Assembly (NCBI RefSeq): GCF_005222755.1
Contig: NZ_STGD01000002.1
Span: 186,001-250,000 of the forward strand
Origin: Roseomonas sp. HF4
GTDB taxonomy: Bacteria > Pseudomonadota > Alphaproteobacteria > Acetobacterales > Acetobacteraceae
DNA: 64,000 nt
Direction of reading: 5' to 3'
The notes below the pieces were generated by a model, which saw nothing but the letters and a program-made list of their open reading frames with translations, was not told where the DNA came from and did no database searches. The translations under genes and the position numbers were made by a program. This document shows, in pieces, positions 1,899 to 15,086 of the stretch. Each line of letters starts with the position of its first letter. The stretch's first letter is position 1.

Positions 1899-2810
1899 TC
1901 AGGCCCCGCGCCGCGCCACCCGGCCGCGCCAGTGACCCGGCAGGCGCGCGAGGAAACGGAGCGGCCAGGCCGGATCCGCGCCGAAGGCCGCGCATCCCGT
2001 GCCGAGCCCGGCGCCTGCCCGGCCCCCGCGCAACTGGACCATCGCCCTGTAGCCGGCCGCCCAGGCATGCCAGCGCCGATAGGCCCGGTGCGCCGGCGAG
2101 CCCGGCGTCTGCTCGGCGAGTCGCGTCCGCGCGAGGTCGAGCAGGTGCCTGGACAGTTTCTCGCGCAGGTCGCCGGCGGCGAAAGTGAGCGAGCCCGGAT
2201 GGCTGCGGTAGCGGATGACGGTCGTGGGAATGACGCTGTGCCTGGGTGCCATCAGCACGAGCCGCAGCCAGAAATCCTTGTCGGCCGCGAGCGGGAAGCG
2301 GTCGTCGAAGGGGCCGACGCGGTCGAGGAGCGTGCGGCGGTAGAAGGCGGCGTTCATCGCCGTGATTCCGCCGATGGCGTTCGCCTCCGTCAGTCCGACG
2401 ACCTCGGCGCCCGCCAGGCGCTTCAGCACCACCTCCTGGCCCTCGCGCTCGGTGAAGAATTCGGCGGCGCCGATGACCATCTCGATGGCCGGGTCGGCCA
2501 GCACGGCCTCGGCCGCGGCGATGGCGCCCGGGGCATAGAGGTCGTCGCTGTTCAGCAGGCCGACGACCTCGCCGCGCACGGCGCGCAGCCCCTTGTTGAT
2601 CGCGTCGTAGAGGTTGCGGTCCTGCTCCCGGATCACCCGCAGGTGCGGGAAGCGGGCCAGCACCTCCGCCGTCCCGTCCGTGGAGCCGCCATCGACGATG
2701 ATGTGCTCGATCGAGCGGTGCTGCTGGGCGAGCACGCTCTCGATCGCCGCGCCGATGGTTGCGGCGCGGTTCAGGCAGGGTGTGACGATCGAGACGAGCG
2801 GGGGGCTCAT
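1899..2810 (-). CDS. Family 2 glycosyltransferase (GT-A fold)
   Basis: A 303-residue GT2 enzyme. It opens with SIVTPCLNRA, has the nucleotide-binding DGGSTDGT near residues 40–47, the metal/nucleotide-binding NSDD near residue 90, and a DKDFW acceptor-side motif near residue 187. Such enzymes transfer a sugar from an NDP-sugar to a growing glycan at the inner face of the cytoplasmic membrane. Its ATG overlaps the stop of the upstream glycosyltransferase (ATGA, 2807–2810), implying translational coupling. The neighbouring GDP-fucose genes make fucose or another GDP-sugar a plausible donor, but this is inference. Confidence 0.9.
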   Translation of the reverse strand: MSPPLVSIVTPCLNRAATIGAAIESVLAQQHRSIEHIIVDGGSTDGTAEVLARFPHLRVIREQDRNLYDAINKGLRAVRGEVVGLLNSDDLYAPGAIAAAEAVLADPAIEMVIGAAEFFTEREGQEVVLKRLAGAEVVGLTEANAIGGITAMNAAFYRRTLLDRVGPFDDRFPLAADKDFWLRLVLMAPRHSVIPTTVIRYRSHPGSLTFAAGDLREKLSRHLLDLARTRLAEQTPGSPAHRAYRRWHAWAAGYRAMVQLRGGRAGAGLGTGCAAFGADPAWPLRFLARLPGHWRGRVARRGA

Positions 2811-4474
2811 CGGCGCAGGAGGCCGCGCAGCCGGCGCATCCCGCCGCCGAGGACCAGGGCTTCGAGTCTCCGGCCCAGGGCCGGGGAGAGCCGGTCGAGC
2901 GCCGCAATCAGGCCCGTGGCCGCGCGCGCGGCGGCGGTCGCGCGGTGCCGCAGGGTCTCGGCGGCCGCGGCCCTGGCGAATGCGCCGCGCAGGCGGTCCG
3001 CGGCGGCGGCGCCGTCTTCGCGCGCGACCAGCGCGATCCAGGCCGCGCGTTCCGCCGCGGCGTCCGCGGGCCGGCGGCGGCGGCCCAGGATCCCGTCCGT
3101 GTCGTGGACCGTAACGTCGGCCTTCGCCGCCTTTAGCAGCAAGGCCGCGAGGGCGGGCGCCGTCGTCGGCAGCGGTCCGCCGAGACGGCGAAGGACGGTG
3201 CCGCGGACCAGGGTCGCCTCCGGCACGCCGAGGCCACGCGGGCCCTCGGCGGCGACATCGCCGACCAGCATCCGCGCCCAGCCGGCCGGGAAGGCGTCGG
3301 CACGGTGGAAGGTCTCGGCGCCGTCGGCGGCATTGTCGATGTGATGGCCGCGCACGATCCCTGCATCCGGTGGGGCGGCGGCGATCGCGCGACGCCACGC
3401 GCCAGCGTCCTGCGGCAGGCCCCGTGGCGCGACGATCAGCCATTCGCCGCGCGGCGGATCCGCCGCCTGGTCCGGCGGCACGACCGTGATGTCCGCATCC
3501 GCGACGGCAACCCCGTCGGGCGTCGCCACGATGGCGCCGCGCGCGGCGATGCGCGCCGTCGGCGTGGCGATGAACTCGACCAGCGCCGGCAGCCATGCCT
3601 CCCAGCGCGCGCGGCCCCGGGCGATGCTCTCGCGGGCCCGCGCGCCGATCTCCCGGGCCGCCGCGAAGTCGATCGGGGCCAGGCGGCCCGGTGCGTAGAG
3701 CAGCCCGTTGCCACCGTGCGAAATGTATTCGTTCATGGTCGGCGCATCCGGGGCCGCGACGCAGAGGCCGCGCGCCATCGCCTCGAGGAAGGACATCCCG
3801 ATCCCCTCCAGCGGGCGCGGCGCAAAGAAGACGTTGGCTCCGGCCAGCGCGTCGCGGAAGGCTTGGCCATCGGCCGACCAGGCGGTGCGGACGAGCCGGC
3901 CGAGATGCGGCGGCGCGGCCGCGGGGAAAGGCGCCTCGTGGCCGGGATCGGGCGCGTCGTGGATGCTCAGGCTCTCGAAGCGGGTGCCCTCGGTCAGGGC
4001 GAAGGTGGCCTCGGGCGGGATCTCGCGGCGCCGGTACCAGAGGAAGCCGCGCAGGGTGTCGAAGTCCTCGACCGGCGGATGCTCCGCGGGGTCCGGGAAG
4101 TACTGCACCTGCGCATGCACCGGCGCCCGGCGCATCACCTCGGTCCTGAGCGCCCAGGAGAAGCAGAGGATCTTGGCCGCGTTGAAGGATGGCTTCCAGG
4201 TGAAGGCGCCGCCGCGCCACATCGCGTCATACATGGGCGCGAAGGTGACATTCGGATGGCGGCCCGAGAGCAGCGCGAAGGCCTCGTGCAGCTGCCAGAC
4301 GAAGATGGCGTCGTAGGCGCCCTCGTCGAAGCCCGGCGCGGCGCGGCGGACCGCCGCCACGTCGGGCGCGGCGAAGATGGCGTCGACCGTGGCATGGCCC
4401 TCGAGCAGATCGAGCAGGAAGCGGCTCGATCCCGTGCGCGCATGGAAGTCGAGGCCGAAGAAGGCGACGCGCAC
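2807..4474 (-). CDS. GT1-like glycosyltransferase with a decayed C-terminal GT2 remnant
   Basis: A 555-residue protein with a GTG start, 10 bases after the fucose-synthase stop. Residues 1–310 form a GT-B-like domain; the donor-side signature GIGMSFLEAMARGLC is near 224–238 and TMNEYISHGGNGLLY follows. Residues about 343–435 align with the middle of the intact GT2 domain of the protein at 8400–10409: GEWLIVAPRG versus [20 protein letters not shown] versus VIGHHIYR, and shared FHRADAF / LHRAADF. The nucleotide-binding half of GT2 is missing and the NAGD acidic motif is replaced by APRG. The second domain is therefore almost certainly inactive. The first domain may still work. Confidence 0.85.
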   Translation of the reverse strand: MRVAFFGLDFHARTGSSRFLLDLLEGHATVDAIFAAPDVAAVRRAAPGFDEGAYDAIFVWQLHEAFALLSGRHPNVTFAPMYDAMWRGGAFTWKPSFNAAKILCFSWALRTEVMRRAPVHAQVQYFPDPAEHPPVEDFDTLRGFLWYRRREIPPEATFALTEGTRFESLSIHDAPDPGHEAPFPAAAPPHLGRLVRTAWSADGQAFRDALAGANVFFAPRPLEGIGMSFLEAMARGLCVAAPDAPTMNEYISHGGNGLLYAPGRLAPIDFAAAREIGARARESIARGRARWEAWLPALVEFIATPTARIAARGAIVATPDGVAVADADITVVPPDQAADPPRGEWLIVAPRGLPQDAGAWRRAIAAAPPDAGIVRGHHIDNAADGAETFHRADAFPAGWARMLVGDVAAEGPRGLGVPEATLVRGTVLRRLGGPLPTTAPALAALLLKAAKADVTVHDTDGILGRRRRPADAAAERAAWIALVAREDGAAAADRLRGAFARAAAAETLRHRATAAARAATGLIAALDRLSPALGRRLEALVLGGGMRRLRGLLRR

Positions 4475-4484
4475 GCGCGCCCCG

Positions 4485-6576
<2,092 letters not shown>

Positions 6577-6740: not shown

Positions 6741-7169
6741 ATGCCACGCGTACTGATCACCGGGGCGACTGGCCATGACGGCGCCGATCTGGCGGCCTTG
6801 CTGTTTGCAGAGGGTTCGTAGATGCCCCGCCCGCTGCTCCGCCATGGCGGGTCGGAAGCCGTGCCAGAGCGCAGGGGCTGCCTCGGCTTCGCGGGCACGC
6901 TGCGGATCGTCGAAAGCAACCGGATCGATCTGTCCTCGCTGATCCTGCGAAGGGACCGGGTCAAGCCGGCCGAGATCTGCAACCCCGCTGCCGAATCCTT
7001 CGTGCGGATGCCCTGAGACCAGCCGCTGCTGATGGCGCAGGTCACCGCGATCCGTATGGCGAACGTGCTCGATGCGGTGCGCATAGGCTGGGCGCCGAAG
7101 ACCAGCCTGCAGGAGACGGTCGCCGAGATCGTCGAGGCAGATCTGGCCCACTGGCGCGGGCGGATCTAG
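6741..7169 (+). pseudogene. Decayed copy of a GDP-mannose 4,6-dehydratase-like gene
   Basis: Read in one frame from the ATG at 6741 to the TAG at 7167–7169, the 142 codons are colinear with the intact gene at 14106–15086. Shared segments: LITG-TG-DGA-LAALL at the N-terminus, RHGGSEAV, RIDLSSLI versus LIDLSSLI, ESFVRM versus QSFVRM, DQPLL, and at the end GW-P-TSL and AEIVEADLAHWR versus AEMVDADLARWR. It is broken by in-frame stops TAG at 6819 and TGA at 7014. An in-frame internal deletion of about 183 codons removes the SSEMFG and Tyr-x3-Lys catalytic region. Its final TAG overlaps the stop of the convergent glycosyltransferase in CTAG. Confidence 0.9.
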
Positions 7170-8149
7170 CCTGCGCCTGAGGCGCCGAAGATCCGCCGCT
7201 TTGCCGTCTGCAGGCTTCGCACCACCGACGGCGGGAGGCGGGCGGCGAGTCGCCCCTTCCAGTTCATTCCCGCCAGGGCGCTGCCGCTTCGGGTTGCCTC
7301 GCGCAGCCGGGCCGCTTCGATACGCGCGGTCAGCCACGCGGCCTGCAAGATTTCGATCCGCCGCTTGTCCCATTGCGCCGAGCGATAGATTGGCGACGCA
7401 TTCTGGATGGCGAAGACCTCGGGTTGCCCCTTGGCGAGTTCCGACGAAGCCCCGCCTAGCGCGAATGAAGCGACGTAGGTGCCGATGCGGCGGATCCTGA
7501 TCGCCGGATCCGCAAGCACCTTCAGCCACCAGTCGTAGTCGGCGTGACGGCGCCAGCGCAGGTCGAACAAGCCGGTCCGGTCAAACACCGCCCGTCGTGC
7601 GAAGGTCGCCTGATGGGGCAGGCAGCCGAGGACCATCTCCTCGACGGCTAGCTCGGGCGGCGGAGGCATGTAGCGATGCGAGACGCCGGCATCGCGAACA
7701 ACGAGGCCGCCATAATAGACATCGTCATCAGGCTGGGCGTCGATCTCCGCCATCGCGTCCCTCAGCGCGTGGGGGCCCGCGAAGAAGTCGTCCGCATTGA
7801 GGAAGATCACAAATGTGCCGCGCGCCCGGGCGATGCCCTTGTTCATCGCGTCGTAGATGCCGCGATCCGGCTCAGACACCAGTGTCGCGATAGCGTTGGC
7901 GTGACGGCGCAGGATTTCGAGCGTCCCATCGGTCGAACCGCCGTCGATCACAATGTGCTCGAACGCCCGATAACTCTGCTTCCCCACGCTCTGGAGACAG
8001 GCTTCCATGGTCGCAGCCGCGTTCCGGCAAACGGTGATGATGCTGACGCCGGGCGCCTTGGCGCCCGGCCCCGTCGCGCCTGCCGCGAACGGCGTCATGC
8101 CGCGCGCATCCCCGGTTGCTGGGTGCGCCACCCGATCGGCGCGAGGCAT
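7166..8149 (-). CDS. Family 2 glycosyltransferase
   Basis: A 327-residue GT-A enzyme. SIITVCRNAAATMEACLQSV opens the fold; DGGSTDGT, SEPDRGIYDAMNKG and the acidic FLNADDFF motif mark the nucleotide-sugar site; ADYDWWLKVL is the acceptor-side motif. This is the WcaA/colanic-acid-like subgroup of GT2. The ORF is open to 8251, but the ATG at 8149 has GGAGGGAG nine bases upstream, so it is chosen; a still later ATG at 8098 is possible. Divergent from the GT fusion gene at 8400. Codon use is more relaxed than in flanking housekeeping genes. Confidence 0.87.
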   Translation of the reverse strand: MPRADRVAHPATGDARGMTPFAAGATGPGAKAPGVSIITVCRNAAATMEACLQSVGKQSYRAFEHIVIDGGSTDGTLEILRRHANAIATLVSEPDRGIYDAMNKGIARARGTFVIFLNADDFFAGPHALRDAMAEIDAQPDDDVYYGGLVVRDAGVSHRYMPPPPELAVEEMVLGCLPHQATFARRAVFDRTGLFDLRWRRHADYDWWLKVLADPAIRIRRIGTYVASFALGGASSELAKGQPEVFAIQNASPIYRSAQWDKRRIEILQAAWLTARIEAARLREATRSGSALAGMNWKGRLAARLPPSVVRSLQTAKRRIFGASGAG

Positions 8150-8399: not shown

Positions 8400-10409
8400 A
8401 TGCGGATCGCCATCGTCGACCATTATTTCCATCAGAAAACCCTCTCCTCGGAATTCTTCGTCCGCGAGGTCCTGGCCGGCTGTGCCATCGAGCGCTTCTG
8501 GGACGAGAGTTGGGCCGGAGGGTCGACCGCCACCCTGATCCAAGAGGTACTAGAGGGCGAATTCGACCTCATCCTTGTATGGCAGGCGGAAGAGACTGCG
8601 CGTCGCCTTGGCGAGGCCCTGGCTGCGCGTGGCAGGGGGAACATGGTGTTTGTCCCGATGTGGGACGGCTGCCGTACCCTCGGTGCGCAATTCTGGCAGG
8701 CGCTGAAGCCGGCGCGAATCTTGTCGTTCTCGCGTACGCTACACGAGCGCGTGTCCCGCTTCGGCCTACTCTCGCATCACGTCCAGTATTTTCCGGACCC
8801 CGCCGGAGTTACGGATGTCTCAGCGATCGCCGATGCTGCGGCTTTTCTCTGGTGTCGAGTTCCCCAGATCGGCTGGCCCGAGATGCGCGCCGCCTTCGGC
8901 ACCTGGCGACCAGACCGCGTACACCTGCACCTCGCGCCCGATCCCCCCGCGAAACCCGAGAGCCTCCGGCTGCCCAGCGCCGCCGACCGCGAGGCGTTCC
9001 ACATCACCACGAGCGAATGGTTCCCGGACGGCACTGCATTCCGTGCCACGCTGCACGGTTCGAACATCTTCTTCGCACCCCGCCTCGTGGAGGGGATCGG
9101 CATGGCCACGCTCGAGGCCATGGCCGCCGGCATGTGCGTCGTCGCCCACGATGCACCGACGATGAACGAATACATCGTATCGGGCGTGAACGGCATCCTG
9201 GCAGATATGACCGCACCAACCGGGCTGGACTTCGCCGCGCATAGACGGATCGGCGCCCGCGCTCGGGATGTCGTGTCGCAGGGCCACGCGGCCTGGCGCA
9301 AAGGTCTCGCCGATACGCGCGACTTCGTCCTTGATCCGGGCGCAGGCGCGACGCGGGCGCTATGGACATCCCTGCGCCTTCGCGATGCCGGCACCGCGTT
9401 GCCGGAGCGTACCCCGGACCTCGCGATACCGAGGGTCACAGTCGCCACGGTGGTGCGCGACGATCCCGAAGGCCTTGCGGCGACGATCGGCAACGTCGCG
9501 CGCCAGGACTACGGCAACCTGGAATACATCGTGCTCGACGGAGGATCGCAGCCACCGACGGTCGACGTCATCCGCCGGCATGAGCACCTGCTCGCCCGAT
9601 GGGTGAGCGAACCGGATCTCGGTCCCTTCGATGCGATGAACAAGGCTGCTGTCATGGCAACCGGCGACTACATCATCTTCATGAACGCCGGCGACTGGTT
9701 CGCGGGTCCCGACGCCATATCGCGCGCGCTGCACGCCGCCCCTGCCGACGCCGACTTCGTCATCGGACATCACATCTACCGCAAGGGCGACACCGAGGAA
9801 GAGCTCCATCGTGCCGCAGACTTCGATCGTACCTGGGCGCAGCTGCGGGAGGGCGCCATCGACGGCGACTGGCTGCAGGGCGTCCCAGGGCACCAAGCGA
9901 CCTTCGTGCGCACGGCATTGCTCCGCGCGCATCGCTATGACTGCCGCTTCCGCATCTGTGCGGATCATGAATTCCTGTACCGAATGCGCCGGGCCGGAGC
10001 ACGCATCCATCACAGCCTGCAGACGATAGCGGTCTACGCGGCCGGCGGCTATTCAGAGCGCAACCGTCTTCGCCTCGCCGACGAATGGTCCGAACTCGCC
10101 TCGCGCTACGGCAACGACCAGGCTGTGATGTACTTCCATGACCTGCGCAGCCACGTGCTGCGCGATCCCGATCGCAATCGGCCGGACCTCCCGGGCCCGA
10201 CCACGATGACCGCGGCGGCCCTCGCCGCCGAGTGCATGACGCTGCGGGAGGAGACTGCCGCCCTGCGTGCCGAGATCACGCGCATGCGTCGAAGCGCGTC
10301 TTGGATCGTGACCTACCCTTTGCGGTGGATCATGCGACGCGCCGGTCCAGCACGTGCCCTGTGGGTCCGACTGCCCTTGCCGGGACGGCATCGCCCCCCC
10401 CATAGCTAG
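8400..10409 (+). CDS. Two-domain GT1-like plus GT2 glycosyltransferase fusion
   Basis: A 669-residue fusion. Residues 1–320 form a GT-B-like domain with [15 protein letters not shown] (about 232–246) and [14 protein letters not shown]. Residues 344–560 form a complete GT2 domain with [26 protein letters not shown], the acidic FMNAGDW motif (427–433), [11 protein letters not shown] and [10 protein letters not shown] short coiled coil ([12 protein letters not shown]) and a basic amphipathic tail end the protein, as often seen in membrane-bound glycan assembly enzymes. It should add two sugars in succession. The ATG at 8400 matches the start of its paralogue at 4474; a start at 8364 is possible, and no clear Shine-Dalgarno is seen. 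Confidence 0.85.
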
Positions 10410-10492
10410 CATCTGGCCTGCGCCGCAACATCTGGGCTAGGACGTGCTTCGTCTGCCCCCCGCCTTCAGTGCGTCGCACTTCGGAGCAAAGT

Positions 10493-12859
10493 ATGGCCAC
10501 TGGACCCGCCAACGCCCCGACTGACAAGGATGCCGTCACGACGAGGCCCTATGACGGCGCCGGTCTGCCGATCCACTTCTTCACCATTGTCCTGAATGGC
10601 GAACCGTTCATCCGCTACCACGAGACGATGCTGGCGAAGCTGCCGGCCTGTTGGCACTGGCACATCGTCGAGGGCGTGGCCGCCCTTCGCCATGACACTG
10701 GCTGGAGTGCCGCAGCCGGCGGCCGGATCCTGGACGCCGTTCACCGCGGAGGCCGCAGCATCGATGGCACGAGCGAGTATCTCGACGACCTCGCGCGCCG
10801 CTTCCCGAGCCAGGTGACGATCCACCGCAAGCCGCTCGGCGAGTTCTGGGACGGTAAGCGGGAAATGGTGAACGCCCCCCTCTCCGCCATCGCCAAACCA
10901 TGCCTGTTGTGGCAGGTCGATGCCGACGAACTGTGGACGGTCGACCAGATCGTCGAGATGCACCAGCGCTTCCTCGACGCGCCAGATCGGAGCGCCGCCT
11001 GGTACTGGTGCTGGTTCTTCGTCGCGCCCGACAAGATCGTGAGCACCCGCCGCAACTACGGCGCCAACCCTGCATATGAATGGTATCGCACATGGCGGTT
11101 CCATCCTGGCGATCAGTGGGCGGCGCACGAGCCGCCAACGCTGGTAAGGCCGCGTCCGGAAGGCGGTCAACCGATCGAGGTCGGCACCATGCAGCCCTTC
11201 GACCAGGACGAGACCGAATCCTTCGGCGCCGTCTTTCAGCACTTCGCCTACGTCACGCCTCAGCAGCTCGCCTTCAAGGAATCCTATTATGGCTACGCGG
11301 GCGCCACGGATCGCTGGCGTAGCCTGCTGGCCCACAAGGGACCCGGCTTCGTCGCGGACTACTTCGACTGGGTGAAGGATCGCGCCGTGTTCGACGATGC
11401 GGCCTTCTACCGGATCGAGCCGATTGCGCGCCAGGATGCTGACGGCAGCTGGTCTTTCGCCACCCCCGATGGTGCCAAGGACCGAACGCCCGTCCAGGTC
11501 CGCCCGCGCATCGTGGTCGACGGCATATATTGGCAATACCTCGCCTCGGGCATCGGCAGGGTCTGGCAGACGATGCTGGAAGAATGGGTGAAGGCGGGCC
11601 TCGCCGACCACATCGTTCTGCTCGACCGCGCCGGCACGGCGCCGCGCATCCCGGGCGTCCACATACGCACCATCGCGGCGCACGACTACGGACACTGCGG
11701 CGCGGACAGCCTCTATCTCGAACAAATCTGCCGCGACCTCGGCGCCGACCTCTTCGTATCAACCTACTATTCGACGCCCGCCGAGACGCCCTCCTTCTTC
11801 TTCGGCTACGACATGATTCCCGAAAGGACCGGCGTGGACCTTGCGGAGGAGTGCTGGCAGGAGAAGGCGCGCGCGATCCGCCACGCCAGCGGCCATTCCA
11901 TGATCTCCCGCAGTTCGGCGCGTGACCTGGCGAAGCTGTTCCCCGAGGTGCCGGAACAGGATGTGGCGATCACCTATTGCGGCCTGCCGCCCGGCTTTGC
12001 GCCCGCCACGGAAGCCGACGTGCAGGCGATGCGAAGCGCGCTCGACCTGCCCGGCGCCTACCTGCTGATGGTGGGCGACCGAAGCGGCGCCGGGGGCTAC
12101 AAGAACGGCATCCTCGCCTTCCGCGCCGCCGAGATCGCTGCCCGGCACGGACAGAAGTTCGAGGTCGTCTGCGTCGGCGGCTTGGCCGACATCGAGCCCG
12201 CCTTCCGCGCCGCTGCGCCGTCGGTGCGCATGCGCCGCGTGAAGGCCGACGACGCGACGCTGCGCGCGCTCTACGCGGGCGCGCATGCGCTTCTCTATCC
12301 CTCGCGCTACGAGGGCTTCGGCATGCCGGTGCTGGAGGCCATGGCCTGTGGCTGCCCCGTCGTCACCTGCCCGAACTCGTCGCTGATCGAGGTCGGCGGC
12401 GATGCGGCGATCTTCGTCGGGCCCGATGATGCCGAGGCGGCGGCCGCCGCGATCGGATCCCTCGCCGACCCGGCCGAGCGCGCGCGCCGCGTCGCCGCCG
12501 GGCTCGCCCAGGCGGCGCGCTTCAGCACCGCAGGGCTGGCCGACGCGGCCATGGCCGCCTTCCGTGCCGCGATCACGGCGCTGGACGCCGGCGAACGTCC
12601 CCGCCCCGGCTCCGGCTGGCGGCAATTCCGGACCTACCAAGCCGGCATCCAGGCCTGGCTGCAGGAGCGGCCGGATCTCGCGCGGGACGCGCTCGCGAGC
12701 GTCGGCGGCGCCTCCGGGCCGGCCGCGCCCGCGCGGCCATCCGGCGAGTTGCTGCGCGCCCTGGCCGAGATCGACGCCATGAAGAACAGCCCCTTCTGGC
12801 GGCTGCGCGGCCAGGTGATCGGCCTGCTGCGCCGGCTCGGCGTGCGCCATCGTGGCTAG
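10493..12859 (+). CDS. Large bifunctional glycosyltransferase (GT2-like plus GT4)
   Basis: A 788-residue protein. The N-terminal 330 residues look like a GT-A-type domain with an acidic QVDADELWT motif near residue 145 and an aromatic, His-rich segment after it. Residues about 350–720 form a GT4 domain: [15 protein letters not shown] at its N-lobe and [18 protein letters not shown] with [13 protein letters not shown] at the donor site. The C-terminus has a helix resembling other glycan-polymerising enzymes ([16 protein letters not shown]). The ATG at 10493 follows GGAG with a 6-base gap, so it is preferred to the upstream in-frame start at 10469. Probably acts after the fusion gene at 8400. 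Confidence 0.85.
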
Positions 12860-12907: not shown

Positions 12908-14077
12908 ATGCGCATCCTGCTGTGGTACTGGGGACGCAAGGGCGCTGGCGGCCAGATCACGCTGTCCCTCGCGCGCGCCCTGGCGGCCCGCTCCGACGTG
13001 GACGTCGCCCTGTCCGTCTCGGCGCAGGCCGACCTCATCGAGGATTTCCGGCGCCTCGGCCTGCCGATGGACGCGGTGCCGACCTATTCCAGCGCGGCCG
13101 GCTTCGCGCTGGGCTGCCTGCGGGTGCCTTGGCTGGCGCGCCGGCTGCGGCGACAGGCGCAGGACTTCGGTGCGGATGCGATCGTCTCGGTCATGACGCA
13201 TCTCTGGACGCCTCTGGTGGCGCCCGGCCTCGCCCGGGCGGGCCTCGCCTTCGTACCGATCGTCCATGATGCGGAGCCGCACCCCGGCGACCCCGCCGTC
13301 CTGTGGGGCCCGCGTTTCCGGCGCGAGGTCGGCTCGGCGCGCTGCGCGATCGCGCTTTCCGAAAGCGTGGCCGCGGCGGTGGGCGCGCGCTTTCCACGCC
13401 TGCCGGTGCATCGGCTGACGCTCGGCTCGCCGCTGCAGGTGGCGGCGCCGGACGGGCCGCGGCCTGGTGCGCGCTCCGGTGAGGTCCGCTTCGCGATGCT
13501 CGGGCGCCTGCGTCCCTACAAGGGGCTGGACCTGCTGCGGGACGCCTGGCGACTGCTCCAGCCGCGCCATCCGGAGGCACGGCTGCTCGTGGCCGGCCAG
13601 GGCGATCTCGAGCGGCTTGCCCCCGGCCTTTCCGGGCTGCCCGGGGTCGAGGTGAGGTCACGTTGGCTCACCGAGGAGGAGCTTCCGCAACTCATCGCCG
13701 CGTCCGATGCCGTGGTGCTGCCCTATACGGAGGCGAGCCAGAGCGGCGTCGCCCCGGTCGCGCACGCCATGGGCGTGCCCGTCGTCGTGACCCCGGTCGG
13801 CGGATTGGTCGAGCAGGTCCGCGACGACATCGACGGCCTGGTCGCGCGGCACATGACACCCGCGGCCCTGGCCGATGCCCTGGGCGCGATGTGCGACCCC
13901 GCGCGGCGCGAACGCCTCGCGGCGGGTGCGCTGGACAGCGGACGGCGGCTGCGCGATTGGGATGGTATAGCCGACGCCCTCGTTCGCATCCTGGCCTCCC
14001 CCGACGGACGGGTGCCGGCCGGAATCGAGCGTGACCGCAGCGAAAAGGAAGTTCCGTGCCGCGAGGGATCGACATGA
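12908..14077 (+). CDS. Family 4 glycosyltransferase
   Basis: A 389-residue GT-B enzyme. GAGGQITLSLARAL at the N-terminus resembles the donor-lobe Gly loop; LGRLRPYKGLDLL near residue 195 and ASQSGVAPVAHAMGVP with VTPVGGLVEQV near 280–305 form the retaining GT4 donor site. It would add a sugar from an NDP-sugar to the same glycan as its neighbours. The start follows a stable hairpin and has no visible Shine-Dalgarno. The C-terminal 25 residues are charged and poorly conserved-looking. The dehydratase-like gene begins 28 bases downstream. Confidence 0.88.
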   Translation: MRILLWYWGRKGAGGQITLSLARALAARSDVDVALSVSAQADLIEDFRRLGLPMDAVPTYSSAAGFALGCLRVPWLARRLRRQAQDFGADAIVSVMTHLWTPLVAPGLARAGLAFVPIVHDAEPHPGDPAVLWGPRFRREVGSARCAIALSESVAAAVGARFPRLPVHRLTLGSPLQVAAPDGPRPGARSGEVRFAMLGRLRPYKGLDLLRDAWRLLQPRHPEARLLVAGQGDLERLAPGLSGLPGVEVRSRWLTEEELPQLIAASDAVVLPYTEASQSGVAPVAHAMGVPVVVTPVGGLVEQVRDDIDGLVARHMTPAALADALGAMCDPARRERLAAGALDSGRRLRDWDGIADALVRILASPDGRVPAGIERDRSEKEVPCREGST

Positions 14078-14105
14078 GGGCCGCAGCCGCCGGAACCCGC
14101 GCGCC

Positions 14106-15086
14106 ATGAAGCGCGCGCTGATCACGGGCGTGACCGGCCAGGACGGCGCCTACCTCGCCGCCCTGCTGCTCTCGAAGGGCTACGAGGTGCATGGGCTGCT
14201 GCACCGGCACGGCGGGTCCGAGGCCGTGGCCGAGCGCCTCCACCGGCTGGGCTGCAACGGCACGGTGCAGATGGTCGACGGCAACCTGATCGACCTCTCC
14301 TCCCTGATCCGCCTGTTGCAGAAGGTCGAGCCGGACGAGATCTACAACCTCGCGGCGCAATCCTTCGTGCGGATGTCCTGGGACCAGCCGCTGCTGACGG
14401 CGCATGTCACCGCGCTCGGCACGGGCAATCTGCTGGAGGCGGTGCGCATCGCGGCGCCGCGGGCGCGCTTCTTCCAGGCCGGGTCGAGCGAGATGTTCGG
14501 CCGCGCCGAAGGCCGCGCGCAAAGCGAAGCCTCCAATTTCCACCCGCGCAGCCCCTATGCCTCGGCCAAGGTCTTCGCGCATTGCCTGGTCGGGAACTAC
14601 CGCGACGCCTTCGGGCTGTTTGCCTGCAACGGCATCATGTTCAACCACGATAGCCCACTGCGCGGCGTCGAATTCGTGCTGCGCAAGATCACCGACGGGG
14701 CGGCGCGGATCAGCCTCGGCCTCGCGAAGGACCTCTCGCTCGGCAACCTCGAGGCGCGGCGCGACTTCGGCCATTCCCGCGACTATGTCCGCGCCATGTG
14801 GCTGATGCTGCAACAGGAGACCGCCGACGACTACGTGGTCGCGACCGGCCGCGCGGCCTCGATCCGCGATCTCTGCCGCATCGCCTTCGGCCATGTCGGC
14901 CTCGACTACGAGGCGCATGTCAGGGTCGACCCGGCCTTCCTGCGGCCCGCCGATGTCGACGTCACGCTGGGCGATCCGACCCGCGCGCGCGAACGCCTGG
15001 GCTGGGAGCCCGAGACCAGCCTGGAGGCCATGATCGCCGAGATGGTGGACGCCGACCTCGCACGCTGGCGGGCGCGGGCAGGCTGA
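14106..15086 (+). CDS. GDP-mannose 4,6-dehydratase-like SDR (second, shorter copy)
   Basis: A 326-residue extended SDR: LITGVTGQDGAYLAALLL, SSEMFG, Tyr-x3-Lys in YASAKVF, FNHDSPLRG and GWEPETSLE. It belongs to the Gmd/Rmd group but is shorter than, and clearly divergent from, gmd at 5440–6525 (FNHESPRRG there). It may be a true second dehydratase or a GDP-6-deoxy-sugar-modifying relative; the sequence alone does not decide. The ATG at 14106 is where homology begins; the frame is open further upstream. It is the intact parent type of the pseudogene at 6741–7169 and ends the plus-strand sugar block. Confidence 0.85.
   Translation: MKRALITGVTGQDGAYLAALLLSKGYEVHGLLHRHGGSEAVAERLHRLGCNGTVQMVDGNLIDLSSLIRLLQKVEPDEIYNLAAQSFVRMSWDQPLLTAHVTALGTGNLLEAVRIAAPRARFFQAGSSEMFGRAEGRAQSEASNFHPRSPYASAKVFAHCLVGNYRDAFGLFACNGIMFNHDSPLRGVEFVLRKITDGAARISLGLAKDLSLGNLEARRDFGHSRDYVRAMWLMLQQETADDYVVATGRAASIRDLCRIAFGHVGLDYEAHVRVDPAFLRPADVDVTLGDPTRARERLGWEPETSLEAMIAEMVDADLARWRARAG

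Follow-up and report, generated by a model that had tools for sequence, protein, structure and literature searches.

A glycosyltransferase of Roseomonas sp. HF4 retains half of an eroded GT2 domain behind a probably active GT4 domain

Partial domains are mostly artefacts (PMC4443539) and genuine ones are rare (PMC4432964). The described cases of domain atrophy mostly spare the functional site (Prakash and Bateman, 2015; PMC4432964). Some glycosyltransferases (GTs), such as K4CP, PmHS2 and ORF6 of the K. pneumoniae O7 locus, carry two GT domains in one chain, and both modules are described as working (PMC11231755). WrtF, a GT2 fucosyltransferase (PDB 9omh-9omn), is a complete enzyme, and the pseudoglycosyltransferases VldE and ValL have a complete fold and couple their substrates through non-glycosidic C-N (or C-O) bonds (PMC3441724, PMC12041759).

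Here we compare with these systems the protein P0001, which is encoded in a 64,000-nucleotide stretch of the Roseomonas sp. HF4 genome (the window; contig NZ_STGD01000002.1, positions 186,001 to 250,000). Like the domains described as atrophied, the GT2 domain of P0001 lacks a large block of its core secondary structure yet persists as a partial domain predicted to fold, and the loss lies in the size range reported (PMC4432964). Unlike in most of those cases the catalytic site is gone, and unlike in those cases the remnant makes up half of a fusion of two enzymes, with intact and intermediate stages in relatives. P0001 resembles K4CP, PmHS2 and O7 ORF6 in its two GT domains, but its second module has decayed. 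With VldE and ValL it shares a GT fold beyond ordinary glycosyl transfer, but it is an eroded domain rather than a complete fold, and in comparison with WrtF it lacks the donor half and the catalytic motifs. A literature search on the P0001 family, WrtF and eroded GT domains returned nothing on point. P0001 is a well-resolved case of domain atrophy: one enzyme domain is found intact, half-eroded and nearly gone across about a dozen genomes, the intact GT4 partner domain provides an internal rate control, a candidate replacement enzyme lies close by, and the sequence of steps in the loss of an enzyme activity becomes directly testable. It is also a warning, as annotation pipelines register just the GT4 domain in proteins of this type.

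P0001 is translated from a GTG start and comprises 555 residues; the limits of its reading frame agree with a preliminary description of this DNA (Table 1). Its N-terminal domain belongs to the GT4 type by the Glycos_transf_1 families of Pfam (Glyco_trans_1_4, 5.9e-10). It is predicted to adopt the GT-B fold with two Rossmann domains, and the model superimposed on the GT4 structures BshA and HepE with Z about 21.5 (top 21.7) over ~295 residues. Both glutamates of the EX7E motif are unchanged in 18/18 aligned relatives. The GT4 enzyme probably still works.

Table 1. Features of the P0001 locus; positions are counted from the first nucleotide of the window.
Feature	Position	Strand	Details and basis
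P0003, standalone GT2, overlapping downstream neighbour	1899..2810	−	Pfam PF00535, 6e-25
ATGA overlap of P0001 stop and P0003 start	2807..2810	−	Sequence
P0001 open reading frame	2807..4474	−	
Last strand and C-terminal helices beyond the GT2 fold	2810..3109	−	Residues 456-555; aligns with the L044 tail
Kept acceptor-side GT2 half	3110..3442	−	Residues 345-455; conserved GH, DG.E, R, W.R(L), G, AT
APRG at the site of the GT2 acidic motif NAGD	3419..3430	−	Residues 349-352; alignment
Eroded GT2 donor-binding half	3443..3559	−	Residues 306-344; just a first-strand-like segment left
GT4-type (GT-B) glycosyltransferase domain	3560..4474	−	Residues 1-305; Pfam, model, dN/dS
EX7E motif, intact	3782..3808	−	E223...E231; alignment of 18 relatives
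fcl and gmd homologs (GDP-fucose pathway), same gene block	4485..6531	−	Pfam, synteny
P0004, standalone GT2, candidate replacement of the lost activity	7166..8098	−	Pfam PF00535, 1e-23
P0002, intact GT4-GT2 fusion, comparator of the preliminary description	8400..10409	+	Pfam GT4 and GT2; GT4 tree

Sequence comparison confirmed that the complete GT4 domain is followed by about 250 C-terminal residues derived from a GT2 (GT-A) domain. The preliminary description had aligned this region with the GT2 domain of P0002, and the alignment holds, with essentially correct residue ranges: the Smith-Waterman score was 126, compared with 38±6 (maximum 60) for 500 shuffled sequences of unchanged composition. 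BLASTP of whole P0001 against P0002 gave E = 9e-57 with 33% identity over 515 columns and took in residues 354-429, which pair with about 430-509 of P0002. Compared as profiles, 13 remnants matched the GT2 domains of four intact fusions (99.6%, E = 5e-24), and the match of the remnant profile to generic GT2 domains of the P0003/P0004 type was weak to negligible. Chance or compositional similarity to GT2 was ruled out by the shuffles, the profile comparison and the fold search. Pfam reports neither GT2 nor any other domain in residues 306–555, so the GT2 match of the remnant is detectable solely via its fused relatives, and a sequence search of the PDB with the remnant profile yielded no match up to E 10.

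From the end of the GT4 domain to the NAGD column, P0001 has 43 residues versus 112-119 in the four intact fusions, and about 70 residues are gone from the donor-binding half. There is no complete GT-A fold with a donor-binding Rossmann half, and the VLDGGS and DAMN motifs are absent. All catalytic motifs have been replaced in the alignment (NAGD by APRG, ADHE by ALAA, HQ by PE), which leaves the domain with neither an acidic DXD-like motif nor a catalytic base region. The absence of the nucleotide-binding half and the change from NAGD to APRG had both been seen in the preliminary description.

What is left appears to fold. A structure predicted from remnant sequences alone was a half GT2 fold (pLDDT 83.5), and an alignment that included intact sequences gave the same half fold. 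Its best match in the PDB was the WrtF GT2 domain (Foldseek 8e-6, Z 10.9), and the GT-A domains of K4CP and PmHS2 as well as the GT2 enzyme SpsA were further fold matches. According to these models the remnant is a folded half domain rather than a disordered tail. The preliminary description had asked for a structural or profile match to GT2 and held that the residual fold is kept; both comparisons found the match, and the prediction supports the retained fold.

Orthologs of P0001, collected by family search and a scan of genome contigs, occur in Neoroseomonas lacus, alba, terrae, oryzicola, marina and alkaliterrae, in Roseomonas rubea (incomplete, as the contig ends within the gene) and in Acetobacteraceae MAGs. 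In at least twelve of them the erosion is graded and in frame every time, with no broken reading frame. Between the GT4 domain and the NAGD column lie 69 residues in L038, 40–50 in L043, L039, L045, L036, L040 and P0001, and 23–31 in L032–L035; L041 has 14 and a gap at the NAGD column itself. Every remnant has lost the ADH[DE] and HQ motifs; VLDGGS is lost from all, with a degenerate trace in L043 only, and the aspartate of NAGD is kept in a few (L036, L039, L045). As motif losses are uneven, the remnants differ in their stage of decay. Complete GT2 domains are present in L044 (MAG WY1.bin101, genome G151), which aligns with P0001 end to end and whose GT4 part is 62% identical to that of P0001, and in L046 and L047 from Rhodospirillales MAGs. 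In the GT4 tree another thirteen remnant-type rows join L044 and L043 in one clade (99/98). This tree identifies L044 as the intact parental type, followed by L046/L047. Neither a single loss that includes L043 (AU test, p 0.32) nor a pairing of L043 with L044 (p 0.25) was rejected. A GT2 tree that includes the remnants has long branches and was therefore used just for the grouping of the remnants with one another.

The GT4 domain allowed us to scale the rate of the remnant. The median ratio of core to GT4 distance was 0.77 in intact fusions versus 2.2 in remnant proteins, and relative to GT4 the remnant thus evolves ~3x faster than the intact domain. By simple Nei-Gojobori counting, a rough measure in a GC-rich genome, mean dN/dS over sister pairs was 0.25 for the GT4 domain and 0.51 [0.42–0.68] for the remnant core; values were 0.13–0.22 for the intact fused GT2 core, 0.46 for the tail and 0.70 [0.51–1.11] for the eroded linker of the donor half. 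GC at the second codon position of the remnant is well under that at the third, and G376, H377, G385, R391, R401, G405, A420 and T421 are unchanged in 12/12 remnants compared. The partial domain is therefore not a dead fossil, since its core dN/dS is below 1. The term "fossil" used in the preliminary description overstates the decay in view of this constraint and the invariant positions.

P0001 lies in a block of the order P0004 – gmd – fcl – P0001 – P0003 that is kept in remnant carriers with a long enough contig, except for L043 (genome G265), where gmd, fcl and P0004 are not nearby. ATGA or GTGA at the stop is also found in most remnant loci and in the intact L044, L046 and L047. P0003 orthologs are present in 9/9 remnant genomes and, adjacent to the fusion, in G151, the one high-quality genome with an intact fusion; the remaining family genomes contained none at the threshold used. 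P0003 therefore predates the loss of GT2, and its candidacy as the replacement is weakened. P0004 orthologs occur in nine of 299 family genomes, which are the nine that carry the remnant (the G265 copy sits on a short contig whose binning is uncertain), and are absent from G151. This occurrence makes P0004 the better candidate, and P0004 may have replaced the lost activity; the association is a correlation, as it follows one or few phylogenetic events.

The surroundings hold further genes. WrtF is the best PDB sequence match for the GT2 parts of P0002, P0003 and P0004. The cluster that contains gmd (5443-6531) has a second GDP-mannose 4,6-dehydratase-like gene (14031-15083). A 796-residue protein (10469-12859), kept near the locus in most relatives at about 64-77% identity, bears a GT4 domain at its C-terminus behind a long N-terminal region that has no Pfam match. 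A FAD/NAD-dependent oxidoreductase gene (392-1825) lies directly downstream of P0003. In another genome, G104, the P0004 ortholog match L049 (G104:C34:335097-335960) contains an in-frame TAG and is possibly a broken gene or a match that extends beyond the true end.

We propose that P0001 is a probably working GT4 enzyme fused to an atrophied GT2 domain that is kept as a weakly constrained, folded appendage, its transfer having passed to another GT2, and assign this reading a probability of about 0.85. The ancestral GT2 half would have worked, and its activity would have been lost in an ancestor of Neoroseomonas and nearby Acetobacteraceae, probably since another GT2 in the same polysaccharide locus, most likely of the P0004 type, took over its transfer step. 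The alignment shows that in-frame deletions took the donor-binding half and substitutions the catalytic residues. The acceptor-side half has been retained as a weakly constrained, folded appendage, as dN/dS, invariant positions and structure prediction show, most likely because it supports the fold of the GT4 enzyme or its contacts with partners. The overlap with the next gene would also hold the frame, with frameshifts presumably punished by translational coupling to P0003.

The half domain might instead have been recruited as a docking or acceptor-holding module that connects the GT4 enzyme with a partner, for instance P0003. The retained fold, a dN/dS below 1, the invariance of G376, H377, R391, R401, G405, A420 and T421 in the acceptor-side half and the constant adjacency of the P0003 gene to the remnant gene would all fit such a role. 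However, P0003 also adjoins the intact fusion in G151, and constraint on the remnant is weaker than on the intact domain by a factor of about three; we consider recruitment possible yet unlikely. A more specific idea, that the half GT2 is a scaffold through which the GT4 enzyme and P0003 would exchange the growing glycan, is speculative and we hold it rather doubtful. If it were true, an enzyme domain would have become a scaffold during its own loss.

At the other extreme, the remnant could be a relic without any role whose frame survives only through coupling to the gene that follows and because stop codons are scarce in GC-rich DNA. Fast evolution, graded in-frame deletions and the stop/start overlap are what one would expect of such a relic, but a core dN/dS whose interval stays under 1, a second-position GC content well below that of the third position and the confident fold predicted from remnants alone speak against it and make it improbable.

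The preliminary description regarded P0002 and P0001 as a bifunctional enzyme and its descendant. The origin of P0001 from a GT4-GT2 fusion and the loss of the active site are borne out, and judging from its motifs the intact fusion would be bifunctional. P0002 shares the domain order and 33% identity with P0001, but that P0001 is its direct duplicate descendant is highly improbable: in the GT4 tree P0002 is a distant paralog (~40%) on a long branch far outside the remnant clade, L044 lies close to the remnants, and no P0002-type intact fusion was found in the other Neoroseomonas genomes searched. P0002 is thus a comparator and not the parent. The GC content of its stretch is 0.66, versus about 0.72, and this value and the absence from the searched congeners suggest that P0002 was gained horizontally. 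An alanine-rich C-terminal extension with no relation to GT2, aligned by chance or misannotated, would fit the missing Pfam and PDB sequence matches and the weak generic GT2 match, but this reading is refuted for practical purposes by the shuffle test, the profile and the fold search. The caution about artefacts (PMC4443539) has no bearing here, since the remnant recurs in about a dozen independent genomes and an intact ortholog can be aligned with P0001 over its whole length.

Other arrangements of the two domains were seen elsewhere in the family. A GT4-only gene is directly followed by a separate GT2 gene in L018/L089 (G104:C20) and L013/L083 (G028:C16), and L019/L092 (G160:C3) and L093 (G375:C6) show the same split; each of these genes is homologous to one half of the GT4-GT2 fusion. 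In L048 (6001-6978, Beijerinckiaceae) the GT4 domain stands alone with no GT2 among the downstream open reading frames listed, possibly reflecting total loss of GT2.
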